A DNA stretch of 64,000 nt from Burkholderia pyrrocinia. GTDB taxonomy: Bacteria; Pseudomonadota; Gammaproteobacteria; Burkholderiales; Burkholderiaceae. Position 1 is the stretch's first letter. Every line of letters starts with the position of its first letter. The translations under genes and the position numbers were made by a program. The DNA is taken from positions 558,001 through 622,000 of the forward strand of contig NZ_CP011505.1 of the NCBI RefSeq assembly GCF_001028665.1, written 5' to 3'. Positions 1 to 14,896 of this stretch are shown here, piece by piece. The notes under the pieces were generated by a model, which was not told where the DNA came from, ran no database searches, and saw only the letters and a list, made by a program, of their open reading frames with translations.

Positions 1-3000
1 AGATGTTCGGCGTACCGGGATACACCTTGAGGTTCTCCGCCGGGACCGGTGGTGCGCCCTCGATATAGCCGATCAGCGTTGGCGCCATCTGCGCCTGACC
101 GATGTACTGCACATCGAGATCGCCGACCTTGAAGTTGCCGAACAGCGCCAGCGCCCCATCCGCCGCGACATAGACGTACGCGCGCTGATAGACGGCTACC
201 GAGCTGCCGTACGCGTCGGCTTCGAGCGCACCGTACTGGCGCGCGCCGGGCGCCCCCTTCCCGGACGCGTTGTAGGGCGTAACGAGGCCGCCCAGCGTAT
301 TTCGGATAGCCGGCAACTCGATGCCCACCGGCGCCAGTGCGCCCTGCCATTTCGGCGTGCCGTCGCCGATCCACACACCGTCGGCGCCCCAACCCGTGAC
401 GTCCGGCACCGTCGAGCCCGATCCTTCGCTGAGCGGCCAGTACGCGGCCAGGTCGGGTTCCCCCGCGACAAGTTGCGTGTACATGTTCTCGCGGATTTGC
501 TGTGCAGTGCGCTGACGCCGCCACACGCGCAGCTCGATCAGCTCGCCCGTGAACTGCCGCGCAAAGGCCGACCGGTAAAACTGCGCGCCGATCGTCGCCT
601 GCGCGTCGCCGTACCCGACCTTGTCGAGCGTATAGGCGTCCGACGTTTGCCGCGCGCCGTCGATGTAGATCGTCCAGCCGGCCCTGAACGTCGTGTGAAT
701 CCACATCTTGTCGACCGCTTCGTTGCTCAGCTCGAGGGTGGCGTCGTGTATCACCGCGTTGTTGTCGCTCTTCGCGTCGTAGGCAATGCGCCCGGAGCCG
801 GAATCGAAGCGCCAGTTGCTGATCAGGCCTTGCGCGTTCGCTTCGAGGTTGCGGTCCGCAAAGAACTCGATCTGCCAGTTCATCCGCCCGGCCTTCCACA
901 GCCGGATGTCGCCCACGGCACCTTGCAGATAGTCGCTGTAGTTGCCGGAGCCGAGCATCAGCGCCGCCTGCGTCGGCACGATCGGATCGGTCACGTGCTC
1001 GAACCCTTGCAATCTGCCGTCGATGAAAACCTTGTGCGCGAACTGGCCTTTGTCGACACGCACGAAATTGCCGCCCACCAGCTCGCCGTTGCTCGTGCCT
1101 GCCAGGTCCATCACGGTGGTGCCGAACAGGTCCGCAAACGGCCAGTAGCCGGCCAGGCCGCGATCGCTGGCGCTGGGCGGACGCGAGATCCGCTGCCGAA
1201 TCTCGTCGGCGGTCAAGCCCCTGTTCCAGATCGAAACCTCGTTGATCATGCCCGTGAACGATTGCTGGGTCGCCATGCCGCCGATCGAATAGGCCGCGTC
1301 GATTCCCGTTGCGACGAGCGCGGGCTGTACGAACGTGCCTTCGGCATGCGGTGTCGCGGCGAGCTCGCCGATCGATTGACCGTCGATGTACAGCTCGATG
1401 CCGAGCGTCGCGGAGTAGCGGCCGGCAATGTGGATCCAGTCGTCCGACCGTAGCGTCGCACTCGCCGTGGTCGTCTGCTCCACGCCGCCGACGAACGCCG
1501 TGAACGTCGGCACGCCGTTGTCGAGATAGAGCAGGAACGGCACCGGTTGCTTCGGATCGACGCTCTGAATGAGGATCTGGAGGCCCGCCTTGTACGGCCC
1601 GACGCTCTTGATCCACATCATCGTCGTGACCGCGTCGGTCGGAGCGTTCGTCATTTGCGGCAGCTTCACGTAGCTGCCGTTGTTGAACATGATCGCCGTC
1701 TGCTTCTCGAATTCGACCGTGTAGACGCCCGCGACGTGATGCCATTTGCCGATGTCCAGCGCGCGTGTCGAGGTCACCGTGCGCGCGACCTGACGCGTCT
1801 GGGTGTCCTGATTGACGCGCAGACCGAGCTTGCCGTCCGCCTCGATATACAACGACCAGCCCTGCCCGATCGCGTCGTTCCAGCGCGAGGCGACCGTCTG
1901 GGTCTGCCCGAGACTGTCGAGCCGCACCCACGCTTCGATGGTGAGCGCATCGAGCGTGCTCAACGTGTCGGCATTGCCAGCGTCGAGAAAACGCGAGCCG
2001 CCGAGCTGCAACCCGTAGTCGCTCGCGTAGGACGCCGCCACATGGGTCCACTGCCCGGGCGCGATCGCGCTCTGGCTGATCGACGCAACGGCACCTTTCG
2101 CACTGATCACGCGCCCGGTCGGGTCGAGCGCCAGCATGTAACGCGTGCCGATCTCGGGGTCCGCGCTGCCGTCGGGCTTGTCGAATACGAGCACCGTGGC
2201 GTTTTCCCCGGAACTGAACGCCGCCGGCTTCACCCACGCTTCCAGCGCGGCATCGCCCGGCAGTATCAGCGTGCCTTCGTAGCTGGCGACCTGGTCCGCC
2301 GTGAACACCTGGATGAACTGGCCCGGGTCGGTCATATCGATATCGGCGAGCGGCGGATCGTACAGCCACCATCCATCGATGCCGGCGCGCCGGCTGGACG
2401 GCGATGCCTTGCCGTCGGTGGCCTGCATCAGCGCCGGCATGCCGTTGTCCGGCCAGACGTCGGTCATCACGCTGAAGAGGTTCGAGCCTGCCCCGGAGGC
2501 CGGCTGCGGCCCCTGCTGCGCGCCGGTCGCCTGTACCGCGACCTGTGTGTAGTCATACAACACGACCCCCTGCTGGGCGGCCGTGGGATCGTCGGTCTGC
2601 TGCATCGCTTCGCCGTTGATCACTTGCGCGAACGCGTCCAGCCCGCGCGGCACCTTCGGCCAAGTCTCGACGAGCCCTTGGTTGCTGCGCAGCTCGACGG
2701 TACACAAGCCGGCGTCCGATGCGTCGATCGTGATCGCGATCAGCCGCGGCGTCGTCGACACGGGGTTCACCCATGCACCGGGCGAGCGCGCGATGAACAC
2801 CGCGTCGCCCGTCTGATCGTTGTCCGGTTTGTCCGGATCGGCCGCCAGCCACCGCACGCCGAACGACGCGCGCGCCGTCACCGTGCTGAAATGGGCCGCC
2901 ATCAGGTTGCCGTTGCCGCGTTGCGCGTAATAGAGGTGCAGCATGGAATCGCCGCCGTCGACCAGTTGCGGCGTCGTGTCGGTCGACGCAAAGGCGAGCG

Positions 3001-4669
3001 TCATGCCGCTGACGGACAGGCCGTTGGCATCCCAGGCGATCGGCGTCATCGAGGCACCGACCGGCGCCGCGCTGCGGCTCCACACCGCGCCGTCCAGCAC
3101 GCCGTCCGCGGCCGCGCCGGTCGCGGCCGAGTTGGCGACGGCCGTGAAGCGCGACGCGTCGCCCGGTTCGTCGAGGCGCCAGTAACCGGCCAGGTCGGCC
3201 CATCCGGGCGTTTGCGCAGTGAGCGACGTGCAAAGCGTCGCGAGAATCGCGTCGCGCCCGCGCGCGACGTTCCAGAGGCGCACTTCGTCGAGAATGCCGT
3301 CGACACCGGATGCGCCGCCGATGCGATATCCGCTTGCGGGCGGGTCCACCGGGATCGTGACGCCGTCGGCGGCGAGCGCGTATGGCTGACCGTTCACGAA
3401 CAGCGTGGCGTTCGTGCCGTCGTACGTCGCTGCCAGATGCACCCAGTATTCGGCTTCGACGGCGGCATCGGCCTGCACGATCACGCTCGTCCGGCCCACG
3501 GCGAAAGTCGGCACGCCCTGCGCGAGCCACAGCGCGAACGGCAGCGCCTCGCCGGACGCACTTTGAATGATCAGGCTCGTGTCGGCCGCGACTTCGTGCG
3601 GATAAAGCCACGCTTCAAACGTCATCGCCTTTGCCGGGCCGCCGACGATGGACGCAATCGCCACCTCGGTGCCGTATCGTGGCGTAAAGCTCAGGCCGGT
3701 GCCGATCGCCGGTGCGGCGGTCAATGCGAGCGATGGATCCACTTGCGCGAGCTTGCCGTCCCTGCCGATGCCGAAATCGATCACCGCGACTTGCTTGTCG
3801 TCGCCGACGGCGAGCGCAAGCATCAGGCGCAACGCACGCTTTTGCAGCGACGGGCGGCCGTCTTCGCCGACGAGCCGCTCCTGCCGGTTGTACAGCACGC
3901 ACGCCGGGCCGCTCGCCTGCTTCAGGGGCTGCCCCGACAACGACAGCGCAAAGCATGCGTCGGGCGGCACTTGACCGGACGACAGGTCGAGCGAATCCTG
4001 CAGATCGAACAAGCCGTTCGCCGCGCGCTGGATGGAAAAGCTGTTCAGCGTGTTCGCGCCGCCGTCGTAAGCGAAGATCTGCCAGCGGCTTTGCCCCGGC
4101 AGCTCGGTTGGCAGGATCGATACGGCAAACTGCCCGGCGGTCACGCCGGTGACGAACGTCAGCTCGGTGGTCGGCTCCAGGAAGCGGATGCCCTCCATGT
4201 CGGCGCTGCCGAAGGTATCGCGCCTGTCGAGCGGGATGTCGTATTTGCGGCTGCGCCGAAACCGCGTTTCCCACGCGTTGACGAGCCGGTCGAGCACTTC
4301 GTCGTAGATGAAGCGATCGACGTAAAGCGTCCCGTTCGTCGATTGCCGGAACACGTAGACGTAGGCGTCGTCGGAAATCACCTGGAACGATGCGTCGGCG
4401 GCCGGAATCGGCGCGTCCCTGAAATCGAGCACGATGACGCCGTGCCCGACCGGGCGCAGCTGACGCGGAAAGATCAGGCGCTCGAAGTCCTTCCAGACCG
4501 TATCGTCGTCGGGATTGCTCGACTGGGACGACAACAGCACGTAACCGATTTCGAACGGTTCGCCGTCCGTGCGTTGTCGTGCGCAGAATCCGAACACGCG
4601 CCCGAGATGCATGAGCGTCGTCGCATACTTGAAGCTCGCACGCGCGAGCAAGGTCTCGCGGCTGCGCAT
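1..4669 (-). CDS. Giant LamG-repeat (concanavalin A-like) protein, 3' end outside window
   Basis: Fourth gene of the RiPP operon. The frame stays open from the ATG at 4669-4667 to the window edge, giving at least 1,556 residues; the stop lies outside. The ATG overlaps the methyltransferase TGA (ATGA), which suggests translational coupling. Residues 1-340 form a beta-rich head without a recognisable signal peptide. Several LamG-like jelly-roll units follow, marked by repeated phrases such as FEAWLYPHEV, YWVHLAATYDGT, GYRIGGASG, LAGYWRLDEP, GKWHHVAGVYTVEF, DDWIHIAGRYSA and LAGYWPFADLFGT. Near the window edge it reads LIGYIEGAPPVPAENLK, a phrase I associate with large uncharacterised LamG proteins. 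LamG domains usually bind carbohydrate or protein ligands. The role here is unknown; surface display, peptide carriage or immunity are all guesses. Shorter ORFs on both strands inside it are shadows in other frames. Confidence 0.8.
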   Translation of the reverse strand, partial: MRSRETLLARASFKYATTLMHLGRVFGFCARQRTDGEPFEIGYVLLSSQSSNPDDDTVWKDFERLIFPRQLRPVGHGVIVLDFRDAPIPAADASFQVISDDAYVYVFRQSTNGTLYVDRFIYDEVLDRLVNAWETRFRRSRKYDIPLDRRDTFGSADMEGIRFLEPTTELTFVTGVTAGQFAVSILPTELPGQSRWQIFAYDGGANTLNSFSIQRAANGLFDLQDSLDLSSGQVPPDACFALSLSGQPLKQASGPACVLYNRQERLVGEDGRPSLQKRALRLMLALAVGDDKQVAVIDFGIGRDGKLAQVDPSLALTAAPAIGTGLSFTPRYGTEVAIASIVGGPAKAMTFEAWLYPHEVAADTSLIIQSASGEALPFALWLAQGVPTFAVGRTSVIVQADAAVEAEYWVHLAATYDGTNATLFVNGQPYALAADGVTIPVDPPASGYRIGGASGVDGILDEVRLWNVARGRDAILATLCTSLTAQTPGWADLAGYWRLDEPGDASRFTAVANSAATGAAADGVLDGAVWSRSAAPVGASMTPIAWDANGLSVSGMTLAFASTDTTPQLVDGGDSMLHLYYAQRGNGNLMAAHFSTVTARASFGVRWLAADPDKPDNDQTGDAVFIARSPGAWVNPVSTTPRLIAITIDASDAGLCTVELRSNQGLVETWPKVPRGLDAFAQVINGEAMQQTDDPTAAQQGVVLYDYTQVAVQATGAQQGPQPASGAGSNLFSVMTDVWPDNGMPALMQATDGKASPSSRRAGIDGWWLYDPPLADIDMTDPGQFIQVFTADQVASYEGTLILPGDAALEAWVKPAAFSSGENATVLVFDKPDGSADPEIGTRYMLALDPTGRVISAKGAVASISQSAIAPGQWTHVAASYASDYGLQLGGSRFLDAGNADTLSTLDALTIEAWVRLDSLGQTQTVASRWNDAIGQGWSLYIEADGKLGLRVNQDTQTRQVARTVTSTRALDIGKWHHVAGVYTVEFEKQTAIMFNNGSYVKLPQMTNAPTDAVTTMMWIKSVGPYKAGLQILIQSVDPKQPVPFLLYLDNGVPTFTAFVGGVEQTTTASATLRSDDWIHIAGRYSATLGIELYIDGQSIGELAATPHAEGTFVQPALVATGIDAAYSIGGMATQQSFTGMINEVSIWNRGLTADEIRQRISRPPSASDRGLAGYWPFADLFGTTVMDLAGTSNGELVGGNFVRVDKGQFAHKVFIDGRLQGFEHVTDPIVPTQAALMLGSGNYSDYLQGAVGDIRLWKAGRMNWQIEFFADRNLEANAQGLISNWRFDSGSGRIAYDAKSDNNAVIHDATLELSNEAVDKMWIHTTFRAGWTIYIDGARQTSDAYTLDKVGYGDAQATIGAQFYRSAFARQFTGELIELRVWRRQRTAQQIRENMYTQLVAGEPDLAAYWPLSEGSGSTVPDVTGWGADGVWIGDGTPKWQGALAPVGIELPAIRNTLGGLVTPYNASGKGAPGARQYGALEADAYGSSVAVYQRAYVYVAADGALALFGNFKVGDLDVQYIGQAQMAPTLIGYIEGAPPVPAENLKVYPGTPNI

Positions 4670-5736
4670 CACTGCGCTCCCGTGTTGTGCCGAACGGCAG
4701 CCAGTCGATCCGCTGCGGCATCGCCGGGGTCGGCCTCATCCGTGCCCGCCTTGCGTGCGAATGCGATCCTCGCCGTGCTCCGTGCCAGCGCCTGACGTCG
4801 CCACGCCTCCGCCAGCGTCAGCGACGACGACACGAGATCGTCATCGAGCCGCGCCTCGATCTGCTGCAGGTCGCCATTCGACGCGATCGGCGCAAGTTGC
4901 AGCGGCAAGCCGTCCGTGCCGGTTTCGAGAAACGCGATGGAGCGCGCCCACACGTGCATGCGCGACTGGAACGTCGCATCGCGCTCGCCGCGTTCCGACG
5001 CGGGGACGAACAGCGTGTGCAGCGGCGTCATCACGGGCACCGTTCGATGCAGGTCGGCCAGCTCGAACCAGAATTCGTGCGTCACGTCGCCCGGATGCAT
5101 CGGAAACCTGACCAGCACCATCGCCTGATGCGCCCCGAACGACAACGACAACGTCTCGGCCAGCGCGTCGAAGCGGTCGGCACGGGATTGCGGCCAACCC
5201 ACGTGCCACAACGTGTCGAAGTAACCGGGCTGGATGACGACGGTATCGAGCCCGGCGCTCAGCCTGATGCGCCGGGCCACGAGTTCCTGGGCGAGCACGG
5301 TCTGCAATCCGCTGGACGGATCGATGCCGAACGCGATGCAAAGATGTTCCAGGCTGGAGATGCCGGCGACGATCCGCGTGCGCAGTCCGGCGCCGTGGGC
5401 GGCCTCCAGCACGAAGCGCGTCACGAGGTCCGTCACCATCGCACTGCCCGGCTCGATCAGGACCACGGCGCCCGACTCGCGCGCCGCGCCCACCACCCGG
5501 GACGCCATCGCACGGTACATGTCGGGCCGATACTGGCCGACCTGATAGTGACCGGTATCGATGTCGACGACGTCCGCGTCGCCGGCGAGATCGGCCAGCC
5601 AGCGGGCTACGCCCTCATGACATCCGGCGTGAAACACGACCTTCGCGTGGCGAATCGCACGGCACGCCTCGACGCTCGGATGCATCGAGAAATCGAGCCC
5701 GCCGCCAACGATCGTCACTTCCGCTTCGCTATGCAT
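4669..5736 (-). CDS. Borosin-like peptide backbone N-methyltransferase (tetrapyrrole methylase fold)
   Basis: A 355-aa SAM-dependent methyltransferase with the tetrapyrrole methylase fold. Seen directly: an N-terminal VTIVGGGLDF glycine motif, a LIEPGSAMVTD loop near residues 93-103, GISSLEHLCIAFGIDP at 125-140 followed by LQT, and TPLHTLFVPA near 237-246. Y64, R70 and Y74 (in GHYQVGQYRPDMY) reproduce the spacing of the catalytic Tyr66/Arg72/Tyr76 of the borosin enzyme OphMA, which methylates peptide backbone amides. A roughly 100-residue C-terminal extension follows the fold. The ATG at 5736 overlaps the lanM stop by 8 bases, and its own TGA overlaps the next start. Unlike fungal borosins, no precursor is fused to it, so it resembles split borosin systems. 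Its likely substrate is the LanA peptide encoded upstream. The fold and family are secure; the substrate is inferred. Confidence 0.85.
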   Translation of the reverse strand: MHSEAEVTIVGGGLDFSMHPSVEACRAIRHAKVVFHAGCHEGVARWLADLAGDADVVDIDTGHYQVGQYRPDMYRAMASRVVGAARESGAVVLIEPGSAMVTDLVTRFVLEAAHGAGLRTRIVAGISSLEHLCIAFGIDPSSGLQTVLAQELVARRIRLSAGLDTVVIQPGYFDTLWHVGWPQSRADRFDALAETLSLSFGAHQAMVLVRFPMHPGDVTHEFWFELADLHRTVPVMTPLHTLFVPASERGERDATFQSRMHVWARSIAFLETGTDGLPLQLAPIASNGDLQQIEARLDDDLVSSSLTLAEAWRRQALARSTARIAFARKAGTDEADPGDAAADRLAAVRHNTGAQ

Positions 5737-8700
5737 CTGATGTCTCCTCTTCCCGATCCCGATGGGCGGACGCAATCGGGCGAGGCCCGATCCCCCACAG
5801 CAGTGCACATGGAAACTCGTTCGGATACGCGAGGCGCAGCAATTCGTAGCCGATGCCCGCGAGCCCCTGGAAAAACCCCAGGTTCTCGTTGTCGCTGCCG
5901 AACGGCCAGCTGAAGCCTTCCACCGTGCGATCCAGACGAGCGGCGGCGCGCCGGCGCGCCAACGCGACGAGCGCCGGCCTCCCGAGCGTGACGCCGGCTT
6001 CCAGCAGCAGATCGAGCCGTCCGAAATTGCCGCAGCACAGGCAGTCGAGCGCGCTCATCGGTTCCGCGACCGTGCGGGCGATCGCCCGCTCCACGTCTTC
6101 GAGCACGGCGCGTGCAGACGCGCCGTGCCGAACCATCCCGAGACGCGCCAGCCCGATCCCGGATGCGCCGTGGCACCATCGGCAGATCGCATGATCGGGC
6201 TGCGCTCGTTCGTCGGCCGCGAAGCGCAGGTCCGGCCAGTTGCCGGTTGCTTCGTCGAAGAGCGCGTGCTCGTATGCGACCCATTCCGCGGCGGCGCTCG
6301 AGCACTCGCGTCGCGCCGACGCGGCCGCGAGGCGCTCGAGCGCATAAGCGAACCCCGCCGCGCCATGAGACATGCCCGCGAGCGCACGCGCATGGCCGGC
6401 GGCGCCGCTCGCCTGAGCCGGCCGGCAGTGTGCGAGCAGATGCGCACCGCAGGCGATCGCGCGGTCCAGTCCGATCGGCCTGCCGGCCTCATGCAAGGCC
6501 AGCATGCCGAGCATGGCGCCCGCCGCCCCGCCGATGACGTCGTATGCGGTATCCGCGCCGATCCACGCGTCGCCGATGCATTGCGCGATCTCCTCGGCCC
6601 AGTCGAGCAGCACGTCGGATTCGGCGAGCTGCGCGCCCAGCACCAGAGGGTAGATGCAGGACGCCAGGCCTTCGGCTCCGCCGAGGATCCGGTCCCGGTC
6701 GGAAAAGCCGGCATGCCGTTCGCGGACGAAACGGTCGCGCAGCGTCGCAAATGCGTCGAGGCCGACCTGCCTGAAATCGTCGCGTCCGGTCGCCCGAGCA
6801 AGGGCCAGCAGGAAAACGGCGATGCCCGTCGTCCCGTCATAGAAGTTCTCGCCCAGCACCTGGATGCGCGGCTCGGCATCGATGGCGGTCGTGGGCAGGC
6901 CGATCCACGCCGCACCGCCGCCGCCGACGACGGCCAGCGACTGCAGATGCTCGCCGATCCGGGTAGCACGCTGCACCATCTCGTCCGGACGCCAGGCTCG
7001 ATCGCCGTCCTGCGGCCACGCGTCGTCGGCGAACGCGGTCGCGACGCCGTCGCGCGAGAACGCGAAGCGCATGAGCCGCCGCTGCTGCTCGAGGTGCGCG
7101 TCGTCGAATGCATCGAGCCGTGCCGCCGCGTGCGCGATCGGCGACAGCACATCGCTTTCCGGGTAGGAGAATTCGACCTCCTCGCTGCCGGCCTCATGCA
7201 ATGTCGTCCCGTCGCTTCTCATCCGGAACAGCGGCGTATCGAGGCGCAGCATGGCCGCCTGCTCGCAACGCACCCACGTCATGGTGTTCGCGTCGAGCGG
7301 ATGATGGAATCGCATCAGGAACTCGAACTCGAGACTGGCGCTCAACCCGTCCGCCAGCCGAGTCGGCTGCGCCGCACGCCGGCTCAACATCTCGTAGAAG
7401 CGCGTGTCGCGGAGCACGACCCGCACGCTGGTGTCGCGAAAGACGGCGAGCGCGTCGCGGACCGTCTCGCGATGGGCCAGAACGAAGCGACCCATGGCCA
7501 CGAGCCCCGCATCGATGTCGCCGAGATGGCCGGAAGGATCGACGACGGATTCCGCGAGCCTCGGCAGATGCCGCACGGCTGCGATCACGAGCGGCTTGCG
7601 GCCAAGCGTCATCGCATCGGTATTCGCATGCAGCCAGCCGGTCACCGTGACCTCCTCGGGTGCCGACCAGCTCAGCCCGCCGCCGATCCATCTCGTGCTG
7701 CGAAACGTATTCCAGTACGGGAGGTAGCCCGATTCGAACACCGATGCGCTCACGCGTCGCGCCGCGGCTGAGATGGCCGGATGCACGGATGGGTCGTCGC
7801 CATCGAGCCTGCCGGCGGGGCGCAGCAGCGTTTCGAGGTCCACCGGTATCGGATGGCTCCCGCATGCAATGACGTTCTCCTGATGGAAATCACAACTGCC
7901 AAGGATCTGGAACAGCGCGAGCAGCGCACCTGCACGCGCGTAGAACGCGCGTACTTCGTCGAGCGATGCACACGGCCGGGCGTCGACGAACGACGTCCAG
8001 CCGTAGCCGTCCCGGCACAGTACGTCCGGCGTCCGCAGCTCACCCGGCGCGCCGGCTGCCTGGATGCGTTGCAGGAATGTCGCCCAGGCACCATCGATGC
8101 CCAGGTCCCGAGGCTTGTAAACCAGCTGCTGCCCGCCGTCGAACCGCACGATCGCGACGCCGCGCCCGTCCCGGTGCCGATCCGACATGCCGAAATCCAG
8201 TCCGGCGACCGCACCGGGCGCGCGACCGGCGAAGAGCCGCGTGACAATCGCCTGCCGATCACGCTCGAGACGCTGCGCGAGTTCCGTCACATGCTGTTCC
8301 CACTGCAGGATGGAGATCGCGAAAAAGCGGGCAAGGACCGGCTTTCGGTCGAGCAAGCGGACGAAATGCCCGCTGCGCAGCCACGCCAGGAAATCGGCGT
8401 AAATCCGGTTCGACGCGTCCGCCGCAGGCTGGCCGTGCGATTGCCGGACAGACCGGAATGCGTCGAACCAGACGTAAAGGCTGTCGGCGAACAGGGCGGA
8501 CAGGTGCGTCGTCAGCCCCGCGCTCACGTCGTCTCGAACCGGCGCGGCCCAGAGCGAGCCATCCAGGTGGCGGGCGATGCGATCCCATACGGCGCTGCCC
8601 AACGGACGAAAGAGATCGCCAAACGGGACATTGCCGTCGTCGCGGCCGCCCGTTGCCGCGTCGCCCGCACAAACGAGCGCAATCCACGCCGGCAAGCGAG

Positions 8701-8992
8701 CCGCCCAGTCAGGCAGCGCAGCGTGACCGGCCTGCCGCGCAGGGCCGAGGCGCAGCACCGCCTGGCGCTCGCTCAGCCCGAGCCGTTCGAGATAGGTGTC
8801 GAAGTGGTGCGCGTGATCCTTCGCGGCCAACCGTCGCCAGGACGCGAAAGCGGCAGCCTCCTTGTCGCCCCCGACGCCACCGGCGTCGGGGGTGCAGGTG
8901 AGTCGCTCGCCGAGCCACGCGCTGCGAGCGACCCAATCGCGCAACGTCGATTCCGCGAGTGGAGGAAGAAGCGTGACGGCTTGCGCGTCCAT
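5729..8992 (-). CDS. lanM: Class II lanthionine synthetase LanM (CCG zinc-site type)
   Basis: A bifunctional dehydratase-cyclase of 1,087 aa, the usual LanM length. It dehydrates Ser/Thr of the precursor and adds Cys thiols to form (methyl)lanthionine. The N-terminal two thirds is the kinase-like dehydratase, with QQLVYKPRDLGID, the SCDFHQENVI loop and IPVDLETLLRP. The C-terminal third is a LanC cyclase with zinc-site motifs GMSHGAAG (H876), RWCHGASG (C940) and LCCGNFG (C986-C987). Most LanC domains have Cys-His-Gly at the last site; Cys-Cys-Gly is typical of the ProcM-like clade, known for relaxed substrate choice. The ATG at 8992 is chosen because GGAGAGGT precedes it and the family N-terminus begins there; the upstream Arg-rich extension is antisense-like. 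It starts 13 bases after the precursor stop and overlaps the methyltransferase start. Confidence 0.95.
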   Translation of the reverse strand: MDAQAVTLLPPLAESTLRDWVARSAWLGERLTCTPDAGGVGGDKEAAAFASWRRLAAKDHAHHFDTYLERLGLSERQAVLRLGPARQAGHAALPDWAARLPAWIALVCAGDAATGGRDDGNVPFGDLFRPLGSAVWDRIARHLDGSLWAAPVRDDVSAGLTTHLSALFADSLYVWFDAFRSVRQSHGQPAADASNRIYADFLAWLRSGHFVRLLDRKPVLARFFAISILQWEQHVTELAQRLERDRQAIVTRLFAGRAPGAVAGLDFGMSDRHRDGRGVAIVRFDGGQQLVYKPRDLGIDGAWATFLQRIQAAGAPGELRTPDVLCRDGYGWTSFVDARPCASLDEVRAFYARAGALLALFQILGSCDFHQENVIACGSHPIPVDLETLLRPAGRLDGDDPSVHPAISAAARRVSASVFESGYLPYWNTFRSTRWIGGGLSWSAPEEVTVTGWLHANTDAMTLGRKPLVIAAVRHLPRLAESVVDPSGHLGDIDAGLVAMGRFVLAHRETVRDALAVFRDTSVRVVLRDTRFYEMLSRRAAQPTRLADGLSASLEFEFLMRFHHPLDANTMTWVRCEQAAMLRLDTPLFRMRSDGTTLHEAGSEEVEFSYPESDVLSPIAHAAARLDAFDDAHLEQQRRLMRFAFSRDGVATAFADDAWPQDGDRAWRPDEMVQRATRIGEHLQSLAVVGGGGAAWIGLPTTAIDAEPRIQVLGENFYDGTTGIAVFLLALARATGRDDFRQVGLDAFATLRDRFVRERHAGFSDRDRILGGAEGLASCIYPLVLGAQLAESDVLLDWAEEIAQCIGDAWIGADTAYDVIGGAAGAMLGMLALHEAGRPIGLDRAIACGAHLLAHCRPAQASGAAGHARALAGMSHGAAGFAYALERLAAASARRECSSAAAEWVAYEHALFDEATGNWPDLRFAADERAQPDHAICRWCHGASGIGLARLGMVRHGASARAVLEDVERAIARTVAEPMSALDCLCCGNFGRLDLLLEAGVTLGRPALVALARRRAAARLDRTVEGFSWPFGSDNENLGFFQGLAGIGYELLRLAYPNEFPCALLWGIGPRPIASAHRDREEETSDA

Positions 8993-9005
8993 TGCGACCT
9001 CTCCG

Positions 9006-9365
9006 TCAGCCCCGACACCCGCCGCAGGTTTTCTGGCACCGTTCGGTGGCGGTCTTCGTCGTACAGCCGGATTGCGTTTTCGGGCAGCCGGTCTGGGTTT
9101 TCGGGCAGCCGGTCTGGGTCTTCGGGCAGCCGGTTTGCGTTTTCGGCGGCGCGTCGGAAGCAGCGGCGCCGATTGCTTGCAGGTCGTCGGTCTCCAGATC
9201 GTCGTCCGACGCCAGCGACGGGTCATTCACGGCCGGTGCGTTGTCCGTCGCTTCGACGAGCATGGCTTCAAGCATTTCCGGATCGATCGCATACATGCCC
9301 GCCTGGGCGCCGTTCGGCCGCTCACCGCGCAATGACGGATTGCTGCTTGACGAATGGTCATTCAT
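9006..9365 (-). CDS. lanA: Lanthipeptide precursor with tandem PKTQTGC core repeats
   Basis: A 119-aa precursor peptide. Residues 1 to about 72 are an acidic leader, including GMYAIDPEMLEAMLVEA and a DDLETDDLQAIGAAASDA segment. Its Gly-Ala/Ala-Ala stretch could be the leader-core cleavage area. Residues 74-101 are four 7-residue repeats: PKTQTGC three times, then PKTQSGC. Residues 102-119 form a different tail (TTKTATERCQKTCGGCRG). The core therefore holds seven Cys and many Thr plus one Ser, enough for up to seven (methyl)lanthionine rings. The start at 9365 is preferred over an upstream ATG at 9416 because GAGGAGA lies just upstream. lanM follows after 13 bases, so the two are co-transcribed. 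No C39 peptidase transporter is visible nearby, so maturation and export must use genes elsewhere. Confidence 0.92.
   Translation of the reverse strand: MNDHSSSSNPSLRGERPNGAQAGMYAIDPEMLEAMLVEATDNAPAVNDPSLASDDDLETDDLQAIGAAASDAPPKTQTGCPKTQTGCPKTQTGCPKTQSGCTTKTATERCQKTCGGCRG
9063..9146 (-). repeat. Four 21-bp tandem repeats encoding the lanthipeptide core
   Basis: Four consecutive 21-base units (9126-9146, 9105-9125, 9084-9104 and 9063-9083 in coding order) each encode PKTQ(T/S)GC. They differ at only a few third positions plus one Thr-to-Ser change, which suggests recent in-frame duplication. Copy number may vary between strains. Confidence 0.93.
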
Positions 9366-9580
9366 ATCAGGTCTCCTCGAAACAATATCCAACAGGCTGA
9401 CGACGTTCACGCCCATATCGGCGATACGGACACTTATTTCCCTGAGGTTTCAATTTCTTGAACAATGAAATCGATCGATATCGTTAAGTTATTCTTTATT
9501 CCCGGAAACCCTTCATGAGAGGACGAGCCGATCCGTACTGCATGAAAATTGTTTCAATGCAATATTTTATGAAACGCTCC
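9366..9580 (-). promoter_or_regulatory. Probable promoter and operator region of the lanthipeptide operon
   Basis: The bases upstream of lanA become AT-rich, unlike the flanking genes. TGAAAC-type half-sites recur: TGAAAATTGTTTCA at 9543-9556 and a GTTTCA/TGAAAC pair at 9551-9575. These could be an operator. I could not fix -35/-10 boxes with confidence. Confidence 0.35.
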
Positions 9581-9583
9581 GGA

Positions 9584-9608
9584 CACGCCCTTCAAATCGA
9601 AGGGCGTG
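9584..9608. terminator. Perfect 10-bp hairpin upstream of the lanthipeptide operon
   Basis: CACGCCCTTC at 9584-9593 pairs perfectly with GAAGGGCGTG at 9599-9608 across a 5-base loop. No long T-run follows on either strand, so it may be a weak terminator or a protein-binding site rather than a classical terminator. Confidence 0.4.
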
Positions 9609-11250
9609 CCCTCGCCCACGCATTCGCGTGCGACGACCGTGCGGATCGCTTGATGTGTGTCTGGTGATTCCCCGAAATGCGCATCCCCGGCTTCTGCCAA
9701 AATTGGCGCAGGCGAATTTTATTTCGCTTTCTGCCTCTCCACCGAGTGCTGGCCACGAATAACGTCTGTATTACCTTAGTACAAAAAATCGGGAACGGGC
9801 CTGTTAATTTTTACAATTTATCCGGCTCATTCAGTGGATTATTTTTTGCGTCCGGCGGAGCGCGCTCGGGCAGGACACCTCTCGCGGCCGCGATCGGCGT
9901 ACCGGGCAGTCTGCGCGGCCGCGCACGCGTTCAGGGCAGCTTGATGCTCGCCAGCCCGCGCGTCGCGTAGCGCACGCAGATCAGCCGGTTCGACATCGTG
10001 CGCTCGCGGTCGCACACAGCGCCTGGGTTTCCTGCCGGAGCATTTCGACGCACGGCTCGGTATCGGTGAGGGTCGTTCGGTGGCGACGACGCTGGCATCC
10101 AGCGCTCGGCCGTACGGCATCAATTTACTTGGGGGGCGGATCGCAAGTCCTTGTCGCAGTGGGATCGGCTTGCCCCGGCAAACCGTGTCGAAATCGAGCC
10201 CCTCGTTTCTTCGGCCCACCTACGGGAGCCGGCTGTCAGACTTCGCGACCGAAACCGCCGCTTCGTGACGAGCCTCGTCATGCCCTGCTTCAACTTGCGT
10301 GAGACGCACTGACAACCCGGATTTCCGCGTACGTTCCCCCCCAAGCAACACGGAGCCATTCTCCCGGATGTGCGGCCCACCGGACGGGCTACCCGCAAGT
10401 TCCGCCGGCCGGGACCGGGCCCGCCGAACCGCACAAATCAAGGTATTGGAATGCGGATTTGCTCAATATTTGAACCGTGCCAGGTCGCATAAAAATCATA
10501 TCCGCGCCTTTTCTCGGGTAATGCATTCTCTGAAACCGCAGAGCATCGATCGGACTCGTTTCCGATAAATGGGGAATTTGGGGTGAAAAGCACAAATTGC
10601 GACCTGCCTTCATGAATTTTTCTTCCTGAGAAAATAGCGCCGCGGATCGCTCGATTCCTGGCGATGGCGCGAGTGATCGAATTGGCGCCCCTGTCAAAGA
10701 ATACAGGTGACGATTAACGCTCAATGGACTACTGTCAGGATCACCAACGAATGCCAGAAGGAAACAGGAAGGGAAATGCCGGTATGCGCGCTACCTGAAC
10801 CGCACTGCCAGACGAGACGGTTCGCGCCGCGCGCTTCTCTCGGTTCTGTAGCGTTCGCAACGTTCCGAGCCAGGTCGTCAAGAATCAGATGGACGGTGTG
10901 TCATTCGTGATGCCGGTTCATAGATTTTTCGCCGGCGGCGTCGAAACCGAGACCCTATATCTGCCCCTTGCCTCCATACGGCAAGCGGACAAGGAAACTG
11001 AAATGGTCGTTCAATCGCCGCGCGACGCCGGACGGCTGCCACATGGAGTTCTACACGCCGAAGGGCGATCCGCTGGTGCCGACGCACGCGTCGCATCGGG
11101 CAGGCTTGTCGTGAGCCTCGGCCGGAACATGTATGCCCTCAACGACGAGTTGATCCACGGCGCAGACAGGAGGCAGGCGCCGTCGATCAGCCACTGGATG
11201 CCGCCGGCACCGCTGGCGTAATTGCAGCACGGGAGTCGAATGTTCAATCC
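9609..11250. other. Gene-poor stretch between the RiPP operon and the lipase gene
   Basis: About 1.6 kb without a convincing gene. It alternates AT-rich spacers with short GC-rich blocks. On the minus strand, 9945-10070 reads like the degenerate end of a gene (SNRLICVRYATRGLASIKLP then stop) and needs a one-base frameshift to extend upstream. On the plus strand, 11041-11110 holds a short phrase, HMEFYTPKGDPLVPTHASH, ending in a stop. Both look like decayed remnants; I cannot name their families. Confidence 0.4.
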
Positions 11251-11268
11251 ATCTGGAGAAGATCAATC

Positions 11269-12276
11269 ATGTCGAACACCGGTACCGAGCAAGCGCAGAT
11301 CAATCTCACGTTAGCCTACGTCGTCAACAATTCAGCTACCGACTTTTTTACGGGAAAGGCAATTAAAGATCCGACCGTGGAGCAGGTCAGTCAGGCCATC
11401 AGCAATGGCCTGAACCTTTCCAAGATGACCAAGAACAACCAGTTCAGTATCGCTTGGGGCCCCGCCGTACTTCGGGACCCCGATTCGGATCAATATGCGG
11501 CCCACATCACCGTGGTGCTGCAATCGGTAGCCACAGGCGAATATTCGGTGGTGACCAGCGGCACCGATTTCGCTTCCCCGGTCGACCTTCTGGAGGACAA
11601 TCTGTACAAAACCCTCGTGTCGTTCCGGAAGTACGTACCGTCGTGCTCGGACCTGGCGGGCATATCGGCCGGAACGGATATAGGACTGTCGTCCGTTATC
11701 CTGACCACTGACTCGAACGGCGCGACGCTCGTCGATTTTCTCAAGACGGTGCGACCCTCGAGCACGATCAACGTGATCGGGCACAGCCTGGGTGGGGCCC
11801 TGGCATCCGCCCTTGTCCTGTATCTGAAGAATGCGCGCGACTTGCAGGCGTCGAACCTGAAATTCACCTGCGAAACCTTTGCCGCACCGACGGCGGGCAA
11901 TGATATCTTTGCCAGTTACTTTGACGAACAAATGGGAGCCAACGCGACACGGGTATGGAACACGTGCGACATCGTGCCGATGGCGTGGAATGCAAAAACT
12001 ATCCAGAGCGTGAAAACGATCTATAGTTCCTCTCCGCCCTCCGACGCCATCAAGCTGCTTATCGATGCGATAAGTATCAATTCGCTACCGCTTAATTACA
12101 ACCAATGGGGAAATGACGGCTCCCAGCAAAAGACACTTGACGGACAGCCTGATAATACGATTACGGATTTCTTTCTGCAGGCCGGGTATCAGCATATCCC
12201 CCAATATATGTTGCTTCTGGGGCTGAATCTGACCGATATCCCTTTGCCCCCGCCGCCTCCCACTCAGGGACAGTGA
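11269..12276 (+). CDS. Class 3 (alpha/beta-hydrolase) lipase family protein
   Basis: A 335-aa predicted esterase/lipase. The nucleophile elbow is INVIGHSLGGALAS with Ser173, typical of Lipase_3 proteins. NTCDIVPMAW supplies a plausible catalytic Asp and GYQHIPQY a plausible His. The ETFAAPTAGNDIF phrase matches the family strand after the elbow. No signal peptide or lipobox is visible, so it is either cytoplasmic or exported by a non-Sec route. The C-terminus ends in a proline run (PLPPPPPTQG). The ATG follows GGAGAAG at good spacing. It stands alone, with a gene-poor region upstream and IS debris downstream. The substrate is unknown. Confidence 0.85.
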   Translation: MSNTGTEQAQINLTLAYVVNNSATDFFTGKAIKDPTVEQVSQAISNGLNLSKMTKNNQFSIAWGPAVLRDPDSDQYAAHITVVLQSVATGEYSVVTSGTDFASPVDLLEDNLYKTLVSFRKYVPSCSDLAGISAGTDIGLSSVILTTDSNGATLVDFLKTVRPSSTINVIGHSLGGALASALVLYLKNARDLQASNLKFTCETFAAPTAGNDIFASYFDEQMGANATRVWNTCDIVPMAWNAKTIQSVKTIYSSSPPSDAIKLLIDAISINSLPLNYNQWGNDGSQQKTLDGQPDNTITDFFLQAGYQHIPQYMLLLGLNLTDIPLPPPPPTQGQ

Positions 12277-12434
12277 GCGCGGTTCCCGAGCTACGCGGCT
12301 ATCCTCCACGCCCTGGGGAATGGCGCGTGGCCGGGTGTTATTGATTTCACCTCATCACTGACGGATGACGCGACGCATGATGTGGCTGGTGCGCAATCCA
12401 TTGGAATAGACCAGAGTAAAGTTTCTCTCATCGG

Positions 12435-12566
12435 TCACTCAAAGTGCTGGAACGGTTGCAATGGCGGCGGCGCAAAGCATGCCGCAAGTGTTTCCGGCAG
12501 CGCCATCAACTCGGTCGCGAGATCCTCGCCCAGGATCTCGCGCAACACCGCCATGGTGTTTGTCAT
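12435..12566 (-). CDS. Small uncharacterised ORF beside an IS remnant
   Basis: A 43-codon frame (start MTNTMAVLREILGEDL, end PLQPFQHFE) with a coherent helical look. It lies 70 bases downstream of an IS3-type integrase remnant on the same strand. A GGAGGA sits upstream, although 13 bases from the ATG. It could be a fragment carried with the insertion element rather than a functional gene. I do not recognise the family. Confidence 0.3.
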   Translation of the reverse strand: MTNTMAVLREILGEDLATELMALPETLAACFAPPPLQPFQHFE

Positions 12567-12635
12567 GTCGAGTCAGTCCTCCATCGCGAAACACCAGCCT
12601 TGATCGGGTGACCTGCCCGATTCCTTCGGGGCATT

Positions 12636-12779
12636 TCAGTCTTTGGGAACGGCCTCGGTTGATCCAGGCGAACAGCACTGCGGCCTGAACTCGTCGGACG
12701 TCAGGCATCACAGACTCGAATGCGGCCGGATGGCATCGTAGTGGCGTCGCCACTGCTCGATCACAACCTTCGCTTCCAT
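12636..12779 (-). pseudogene. Remnant of an IS3-family transposase (integrase C-terminus)
   Basis: The minus strand reads EAKVVIEQWRRHYDAIRPHS, then SL, a TGA, and CLTSDEFRPQ. This is the conserved end of IS3-family OrfB integrases (usually RPHSSLGYLTPxEF). The stop falls where Gly is normally found. Only about 47 codons survive and the rest of the transposase is absent, so this is a decayed copy. It helps explain the gap between the lipase and protease genes. Confidence 0.75.
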
Positions 12780-13198
12780 AAGTGCTAAACGCGGCACCAT
12801 GAATCAATTGCATTACCCCGCAAACGCCATCAACAATCAAGGCAACTATTTAATAAAGTAAATTACGGCTGACGTTGTTGCTCCGCTTCAAATCGCCGGT
12901 TCCGTTCGAGCGGTGTCCCTCCGCCTCACCCCTAGTTTCTCGACGCTCACCAAGTGTTCCCTTCCGCGCGAAGTTGCCGATACCGCCAACGCGGCCGACT
13001 AGATCATTTCACGTTTCTCACCAAATCCTGACTTGATTAACATCGGCATGATTAAAAATTAATTTATTAGAAAATATCTTGTAATTATAAAAACGACCTT
13101 CTAGCATGCCCCTGCGGTTCGCGACATGTCTCACATCAACGTTTTTACTTGATGCATTCCTCGAAAATCACGCATTTATCCATAATCTGGGGGATTAC

Positions 13199-14896
13199 AT
13201 GAAGAAACTGTCTCGTCTGCTGTCCATCACCGCGATTACCCTCGCGAGTCTCAGCGCATTTGCCCAAGCCGGCGACCAGCCGGCCGCGGTCGACAAGGCG
13301 CTGCAACTGATCCAGCAGAACCCGTCCGCTTTCAGCCTGGCTACCGGCAGCGCCGCACGCACGTTGAAGTTCGCGGCGCCGCAGGCGAGCGCGCCGACGG
13401 ACGGCGACCAGTTCCAGGTACGCGACGTGATCGTCGATCCCGACGGCACCGAGCACGTGCGCTTCGACCGCTTCTACGCGGGTCTGCCCGTGATCGGCGG
13501 CGACGTCGTCGTCCATTCGAACCAGGGGCAACTGAAGCAAGCGAGCCTGACCCAGCCCGCGCCGATCGATCTCGCCGGCAAGATCGGCAAGGTCGGCGAC
13601 CGCTTCGTGGTACGCAACGCGCCCGACGTGGGCGCGGCCAGGGTCAAGCGCATCGCGGCCGCGCGTTTCGCATCGGACGTGCGCCGCGTCGATGACGCGG
13701 AACTCGTCGTGTTCGCGCGCGACGTCACGCCGACGCTGGCCTACGCAGTGCGCGTATACGGCAAGGGGACCGACGCGCACGGCGATGCCGTGCTGTACTA
13801 CGTCGACGCGCGCACGGGCACCGTGCTCGACGCGCAGGACCTGATCAAGACCGCCGCCGCGACCGGCACCGGCCGCTCGCTGTACTACGGCAACCTGACG
13901 CTGACCACCGACCAGACCGGCACGAACGCTTACCGGATGCTCGATCCGACCCGCGGCAGCGGCTCCGTCTACGACGGCCGCGGGCTGATCGCGGAGGACG
14001 TCGAGCAAGCGACCGACCTGCCGATCTTCACGAGCAGCACGAACGTGTGGGGCAACAGCTCGACCACCGACCGGCAGACCGTCGCCGCCGACATCGACTA
14101 CGGCCTCGCGTTGACTTGGGACTACTACAAGACTGCGCACAACCGTAACGGCATCTTCAACGACGGGCGCGGCGTGAGGAGTTTCGCGCACGTGGTGTTC
14201 GACACCGGCAGCGGCACGACCGGCGCGAACGCGGCATGGATGCCGTCGCACATCATGGTGTACGGCGACGGCCAGTCGGGTACGAGCCTGCCGAAGCCCG
14301 TCGTGTCGGTCGACGTGGCCGGGCACGAGATGAGCCACGGCGTGACCGAGGCCACCGCCAACCTGAACTATTCGGGCGACGCGGGCGGCCTGAACGAGTC
14401 GACGTCCGACATCTTCGGCACGCTCGTGAAGTTCTACGCGAACAACGCGAACGATCCCGGCAACTACGTGATCGGCGCGCGCGTGGTGAGCGGCGGCCTG
14501 CGCAAGATGTACAAGCAGGATCTCGATGGCCGGTCGTTCAGCTGCTATCCGTCCGGCGGCTTCTCGTGGTCGAATCCGCGCCACGATCCGCACTTCACGT
14601 CGGGCGTCGGCAACCGCTTCTTCTACCTGCTGTCGGAAGGCCCGGCGGTGCCGTCGACCGACACCGGCCTGTCGAGGACGCAGCTGGTCTGCAACGGCGA
14701 CACGACCTTCAGCGGCCTCGGTCGCGACAAGGCCGGCAAGATCTGGTACCGGACGCTGACCGTGTACCTGAACGCCAACTCGAGCTACACGAGCGCGCGG
14801 CGCGCATCGATCCAGGCGGCGAACGACCTGTATGGCGCGAACTCGGCCGAGAGCGCAACGGTCGCGCGCGCGTGGAGTGCGGTCGGGGTGAATTGA
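13199..14896 (+). CDS. M4 (thermolysin-like) secreted zinc metalloprotease, ZmpA/ZmpB type
   Basis: A 565-aa preproenzyme. A signal peptide (MKKLSRLLSITAITLASLSAFAQA) is followed by an FTP/PepSY propeptide to about residue 220 and then the catalytic domain. Zinc ligands are visible: H376-E377-M-S-H380 (HEMSH) and E400 in GGLNESTSD. The 24-residue spacing from the first His to the Glu equals that of thermolysin. The length and organisation match the Burkholderia virulence proteases ZmpA and ZmpB (about 62-63 kDa precursors, type II secreted, self-cleaving). I cannot tell which of the two from sequence memory. The ATG at 13199 is preferred over upstream starts because the signal peptide begins there. 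Expression is probably quorum-regulated by analogy, but I did not identify a lux-type box. Confidence 0.92.
   Translation: MKKLSRLLSITAITLASLSAFAQAGDQPAAVDKALQLIQQNPSAFSLATGSAARTLKFAAPQASAPTDGDQFQVRDVIVDPDGTEHVRFDRFYAGLPVIGGDVVVHSNQGQLKQASLTQPAPIDLAGKIGKVGDRFVVRNAPDVGAARVKRIAAARFASDVRRVDDAELVVFARDVTPTLAYAVRVYGKGTDAHGDAVLYYVDARTGTVLDAQDLIKTAAATGTGRSLYYGNLTLTTDQTGTNAYRMLDPTRGSGSVYDGRGLIAEDVEQATDLPIFTSSTNVWGNSSTTDRQTVAADIDYGLALTWDYYKTAHNRNGIFNDGRGVRSFAHVVFDTGSGTTGANAAWMPSHIMVYGDGQSGTSLPKPVVSVDVAGHEMSHGVTEATANLNYSGDAGGLNESTSDIFGTLVKFYANNANDPGNYVIGARVVSGGLRKMYKQDLDGRSFSCYPSGGFSWSNPRHDPHFTSGVGNRFFYLLSEGPAVPSTDTGLSRTQLVCNGDTTFSGLGRDKAGKIWYRTLTVYLNANSSYTSARRASIQAANDLYGANSAESATVARAWSAVGVN

Follow-up and report, generated by a model that had tools for sequence, protein, structure and literature searches.

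A putative hybrid RiPP operon joining a class II lanthionine synthetase and a borosin-like methyltransferase in Burkholderia pyrrocinia

The window analysed here, a stretch of 64,000 nucleotides from Burkholderia pyrrocinia (genome of 7.96 Mb in 4 contigs, the one with the operon measuring 1,049,005 bases), carries on its minus strand, from 9365 to 4669, a RiPP precursor gene followed by lanM and a gene for a methyltransferase (MT), with a LamG gene downstream (Table 1). Direct reading of the junctions shows that the end of lanM and the start of the MT gene have ATGCATAG in common, an overlap of 8 nt, and that the MT stop and the LamG start have GTGA in common, an overlap of 4 nt with a GTG start, which an adjacent ATG would reduce to 1 nt. 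The tight packing of precursor, LanM, MT and LamG genes described in the initial annotation is thus confirmed. The G+C content of the precursor, lanM and MT genes is 0.64-0.69, that of the surroundings 0.66. The LamG gene leaves the window and ends at L002:16364 (G000:C3:556364); a domain search of the part inside the window found five Laminin_G_3 stretches. No sigma-70-like promoter was found in 4500-11300 and no Rfam family in 9366-11400. Upstream of the precursor lie nearly 2 kb (9366-11268) with a G+C content of 0.57 and no obvious gene, and beyond them, on the opposite strand, genes for a lipase (class 3) and a thermolysin-type M4 peptidase (11269-14896, +).

Table 1. Genes and sequence features of the operon, with positions in the window.
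Feature	Position	Strand	Evidence or remark
RiPP precursor gene, 119 aa	9006..9365	-	ORF with gaggag upstream; 7 further clusters match; alignment
Likely core, residues 70-119	9009..9158	-	7 Cys, 14 Ser/Thr; boundary inferred
Variable repeats, KTQTGCP x3 + KTQSGC	9063..9143	-	Repeat count differs among relatives
Conserved C-terminal end, TTKTATERCQKTCGGCRG	9009..9062	-	T, T, E and TCGGCRG invariant in 8/8 rows
Class II lanthionine synthetase LanM, 1087 aa	5729..8992	-	TIGR03897, PF13575, PF05147; WCHG and CCG motifs
Borosin-like SAM MT, 355 aa	4669..5736	-	PF00590; PDB sequence, profile and fold matches; trees
MT motif Y64-x5-R70-x3-Y74	5515..5547	-	Invariant in 17/17 subfamily rows; aligned with OphA Y66/R72/Y76
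LamG-repeat protein, N-terminal 1557 codons in window	1..4672	-	Domain matches; start overlaps MT stop

The identity of LanM as a class II lanthionine synthetase is secure. It scores 656.5 bits against TIGR03897 (cut-off 304), and PF13575 and PF05147, the dehydratase and cyclase domains, are each matched over almost their entire length. A WCHG motif at residue 940 and a CCG motif at residue 986 presumably provide the zinc ligands. A LanM above the cut-off occurs in three of the 65 genomes of the genus, namely this one, G052 and G025, and tblastn with the window MT gave no match in the stretches L022 of G052, L023 of G025 (which lies at the edge of a contig) and L024 of G016. The LanM gene of G052 is situated between an NRPS gene and an asparagine-synthase-like gene (L022:2814-15179); the NRPS has three condensation stretches and one adenylation domain, a possible NRPS-lanthipeptide neighbourhood. 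The B. pyrrocinia genome has two Peptidase_C39 matches, neither of them in the operon. The nearer one (C3:537501) was considered as a dedicated transporter-protease and rejected, being part of a type I secretion exporter in which the catalytic Cys is absent by eye. The stretch from L025:12432-15100 into L002:1-2502 (+), ~14-18 kb beyond the end of the LamG gene and after very large ORFs, encodes an ABC exporter that has a C39-like domain; the genes next in line are, by eye, HlyD-like and TolC-like.

The precursor belongs to a family of eight proteins at E<=0.01, the window's own included. In the alignment the leader is conserved, and the C-terminal end reads T-x-T-E-x-x-x-x-T-C-G-G-C-R-G in all eight; P0021 has Ser in place of the first Cys of this end that is present in the others. 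The window precursor has four KTQ(T/S)GC repeats, and even two TQ(T/S)GC units appeared in none of 100,000 residue shuffles. The number of TQ(T/S)GC units differs within the family: the window precursor has 4, P0018 has 6 and P0022 has 1, and the remaining five have none. A Cys/Thr-rich repeated precursor, as initially annotated, is therefore present, but its repeats are the variable part and the C-terminal end is the conserved one. The leader ends in L-E-T-D-D-L-Q-A-I-G-A-A, which we take to resemble a double-glycine leader with Ala-Ala, and the core boundary after IGAAA was our choice. The core so defined contains no V, I, L, M, F, W or Y; among the relatives whose core could be cut by script, these residues are absent from P0018 and P0022 and number 2 or 3 in P0019, P0020, P0021 and P0023. 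With its position beside lanM and with Ser/Thr and Cys in its core, the protein conforms to a class II lanthipeptide precursor. It is encoded separately from the MT, which is not fused to it. A search for a SonA-like borosin-binding domain in the precursor gave no sequence match at E<=10, and the predicted structure, with a helix at 29-41, is too poor (pLDDT 54.5, pTM 0.24) to exclude such a domain.

The MT scores 46.5 bits against PF00590 (cut-off 27.8), a fold also found in corrin and diphthine enzymes, and its nearest solved relatives by all comparisons are borosin alpha-N-methyltransferases. Borosin enzymes make up 25 of the 26 PDB sequences matched by phmmer and 25 of the 27 matched by the MT profile, with diphthine and uroporphyrin enzymes ranking after all 25. 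With the predicted fold, they account for all 50 rows among the Foldseek matches listed and for the first 32 of 50 rows among the VIA-align matches listed. Assignment as a corrin, siroheme or diphthine MT was rejected: the NCBIfam scores lay far below their cut-offs (39.1 of 525, 16.3 of 163.25 and 15.5 of 354 bits), the first of these being the best name (YabN), and the MT does not cluster with corrin or diphthine enzymes in a phylogeny, an outcome in favour of the initial proposal. A first tree, to which the genome's nine other PF00590 genes had been added, united the MT subfamily with seven borosin rows only weakly (49/42); in a second tree without L011 (wrong frame) and the long-branched L031, L032, L033 and L035, they grouped at 97/94. 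In the second tree, the seven borosin rows occupy their own side of a 99/99 branch of 2.46 changes per column, which the window subfamily adjoins; the unity of the latter is at 79/70 and not starred. Because this subfamily lies beside the borosin branch and outside it, the MT is best described as borosin-like, not as a borosin.

The borosin catalytic signature proposed initially is retained only in part. The motif Y-x5-R-x3-Y is present in 17/17 rows of the MT subfamily and in 7/7 borosin rows, and in none of nine cut pieces of the genome's other PF00590 genes. By alignment, Y64, R70, Y74 and Q169 of the MT correspond to Y66, R72, Y76 and Q172 of OphA (in our mapping, printed chain position plus one), and all four are invariant in 17/17 subfamily rows. 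The OphA Y63 and Y98 columns, on the other hand, have no Tyr in the MT, and the Y98 column has Pro. For OphA, purified R72A, R72K, Y76F, Y98A and Y98F variants are reported to be without detectable methylation, Y98 being essential, and methylation is reported to be reduced in Y63F, Y66F and Q172A (PMC6108569). In SonM, the reported losses in kcat/KM are ~98-fold for Y71F and R67K, 14-fold for Y58F and 1.6-fold for Y93F; Y93 is the equivalent of OphA Y98, and its replacement by Phe thus costs only ~2-fold (PMC8429565). The most critical pair, R72/Y76, is therefore kept together with Y66 and Q172, and Y63 and Y98 are replaced.

These residues bear on where a methyl group would be placed. The MT may methylate the lanthipeptide elsewhere than on the backbone, either on a side chain or at a terminus (the N-terminal amine, or the carboxylate with which the CRG end closes), with a borosin-like site that has been re-purposed. 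Such a role would fit the Pro in the Y98 column and the loss of Y63, the invariance of the C-terminal TCGGCRG in 8/8 precursors, the service of the PF00590 fold in corrin and diphthine enzymes, and the reported targets of lanthipeptide methyltransferases, which are termini or Asp (PMC11285071, PMC7268733). We nevertheless regard it as rather unlikely: the equivalents of R72, Y76, Y66 and Q172, reported to hold the peptide backbone in OphA (PMC6108569), are invariant throughout the subfamily, and the nearest relatives of the MT by every measure are backbone N-methyltransferases. Bacterial borosin MTs are reported to methylate primarily hydrophobic residues (PMC11285071). A core without such residues is still a possible substrate, because the reported targets of OphA include Gly, Thr and Ala in addition to larger residues (PMC6108569).

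Co-occurrence of LanM and MT was assessed by exact equality in the size of the longest contig of each protein cluster, a proxy for co-location that says nothing of distance, after protein searches that each scored the 8000 candidates sharing most words. Four of 16 MT clusters match a LanM cluster in this way, namely on contigs of sizes 32425 (MT 87% and LanM 85% identical to those of the window), 9746 (69% and 60%), 42858 (50% and 44%, both in 2 contigs) and 14625 (46% and 38%). When the LanM sizes were jittered by up to 10%, matches by chance had a mean of 0.03 and a maximum of 3 in 20,000 trials. The four paired LanMs are all among the best 8 of 98 LanM matches, and none is among the other 90. 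In a quick LanM tree (LG+G4, 39 of the 98 matches, the partial P0029 left out), they form one clade of seven (SH-aLRT 100) with the LanMs of the window, of P. youngii and of a 4345-base contig. In both the MT and the LanM tree, the proteins of 32425 and 9746 nest with those of the window and the proteins of 42858 and 14625 lie outside, the MT tree leaving the order of the latter two unresolved. The precursor clusters share the sizes 46117 and 32425 with MT clusters, so that 32425 is common to LanM, MT and precursor homologues, and a LanM of P. youngii and a precursor both have 1060462. Since by this proxy four further contigs carry both enzymes and their LanMs belong to one supported clade, the pairing seems to be of long standing and maintained by selection rather than accidental to this locus.

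The same data bear on the proposal that the MT has only the operon in common with LanM and acts on a different substrate, such as a small molecule or the product of the LamG gene. The MT gene overlaps the LamG gene as well, and the sequence search and the poor structural model revealed no MT-binding domain in the precursor. Furthermore, neither a LanM nor a precursor of the same longest-contig size was found for the close MT homologues P0005, P0006 and P0007, nor a LanM of equal size for the six remoter MTs P0011-P0016, one of which is on a 1.4-Mb contig. As for the remaining clusters, P0001 has its size in common with a precursor and no listed LanM, and P0004 and P0010 lie on contigs of 1992 and 3220 bases, respectively, on which LanM and MT genes would not both fit. 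Against a separate substrate stand the four further contigs, on which the pair persists down to 38% (LanM) and 46% (MT) identity and one of which (32425) also has the precursor, and the single clade formed by their LanMs; we consider it unlikely.

The MT query matched six of the 65 genomes of the genus at E<=0.001, this one included; the other five matches are weak (22-31% identity), four of them in or near borosin-type frames and the fifth, L011 (G030), in no recognisable MT frame. The MT profile found only its own genome among 398 genomes of the phylum at 1e-25, and its own and G044 (76.6 bits) among 299 relatives at 1e-20. The precursor profile matched one of the 65 genomes of the genus, its own, and neither MT nor precursor had a match in plasmids or in PHROGs. 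Two Paraburkholderia records have MT remnants (L003:171-607 and L004:10001-10239), both without about residues 176-255; ORFs neighbouring the one in L004 are transposase-like by eye.

The single precursor match in the genus, the shortened remnants, the P. youngii precursors without repeats and the Ser in P0021 might indicate that the operon is decaying and has ceased to yield a product. All three genes of the window are, however, open and full length, and P0018 has six repeats. Moreover, a contig of 1,136,308 bases, larger than the window's own of 1,049,005, is represented in the 90% clusters to which its precursor and LanM belong; another assembly therefore has near-identical genes. Decay thus seems highly improbable.

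We favour, with a probability of roughly 0.5, a hybrid RiPP operon in which lanthionine rings and the activity of a backbone-directed, borosin-like MT meet on one precursor. The leader would present the Thr/Ser/Cys-rich core to LanM, which would dehydrate Thr and Ser and close (methyl)lanthionine rings both within the repeats and at the conserved C-terminal end. The MT would methylate the same precursor, most likely at backbone amides, before or after ring closure. A candidate for leader removal is an HEXXH-bearing protein encoded downstream of the LamG gene (L002:14816-16243, -), which matches PT-HINT weakly (17.3 bits against a cut-off of 27.7) and has, by eye, an HEVGH motif; judged by this zinc-protease-like motif, it is possibly a leader protease or a self-processing protein. 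A small Cys-bearing protein is also encoded downstream of LamG. That MT and LanM work on the same peptide, deduced initially from gene coupling, gains from the four further contigs and appears quite likely. If the MT does act there, the backbone nitrogen is on balance the favoured site of methylation; this part of the initial proposal stays conditional in view of the replaced Y63 and Y98, the binding domain not found in the precursor and the core devoid of V, I, L, M, F, W and Y.

The operon resembles several known systems in part. With borosins, i.e., the split SonM/SonA of Shewanella and the fused OphMA, dbOphMA and MroMA, it shares an MT of the tetrapyrrole-methylase fold with equivalents of OphA Y66, R72, Y76 and Q172, and, with the split systems, separate MT and precursor genes. 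It differs in that the MT, with Y63 and Y98 replaced, belongs to a separate, deep branch adjacent to the borosins, in that no SonA-like binding domain was found, and in the presence of LanM. Class II lanthipeptide systems are alike in a LanM with both domains over the cut-off and in a Cys/Ser/Thr-rich core after a conserved leader, whereas in the window a borosin-like MT overlaps lanM and the operon has no C39 transporter-protease gene. Methylated lanthipeptides likewise have an MT in their clusters. In contrast to the backbone methylation proposed here, LanSA-type enzymes are described as acting on Asp and LahSB on the C-terminus, and the N-terminal amine is given as the target of both DivMT and the cacaoidin enzyme; LahSB is, in addition, described as a class I MT, unlike the tetrapyrrole-methylase fold of the window MT. 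EreM of pythonamide is comparable in that backbone N-methylation is reported inside another RiPP family, the proteusins, but it is FkbM-like and thus outside the borosin fold family.

In 2021, backbone alpha-N-methylation was described as confined to borosins among RiPP pathways (PMC8429565), and the FkbM-type backbone N-methylation by EreM came later (PMC9259500, PMC11285071). PF00590 or tetrapyrrole methylases receive no mention in the main text of a survey of lanthipeptide clusters (PMC7268733). Our literature search found no report that combines a LanM and a borosin-type MT, which does not establish absence from print. What would be new is two known enzyme kinds in a pairing not found described, with altered catalytic residues, and the recurrence of this pairing may point to a natural peptide family with both modifications. 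A new RiPP class, in which dedicated clades of LanM and borosin-like MT diversified together and gave peptides with both thioether rings and backbone N-methyls, by means of an active site without two borosin tyrosines and without a borosin-binding domain, is a more speculative proposal that we advance tentatively.

If both enzymes act on one peptide, thioether rings and, subject to confirmation, N-methylated amides, both drug-like constraints, would be combined on a ribosomal peptide, and the MT may need no large binding domain. The three genes are co-expressible, which makes the hybrid question testable, and the paired LanM/MT lineages provide a search handle for more such clusters. Among the sequences collected, the frame at L007:2436-3680 (-) in G032, beside a borosin-type MT frame, encodes a protein with an extended stretch in which Asp alternates with Val or Ile (IDIDVDVD), which recalls the alternating acidic cores reported for type III borosins (PMC11395268). 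A remoter-subfamily MT in a Gemmatimonas MAG (L005:5937-7266), seemingly frame-broken, is followed by a frame that is Asp/Asn-hydroxylase-like by eye. In G005, a TEVT-repeat protein (L009:2860-3759, +) directly follows an OphA-like MT (1462-2814; E 1e-87 to OphA) and is likely to be a borosin precursor.
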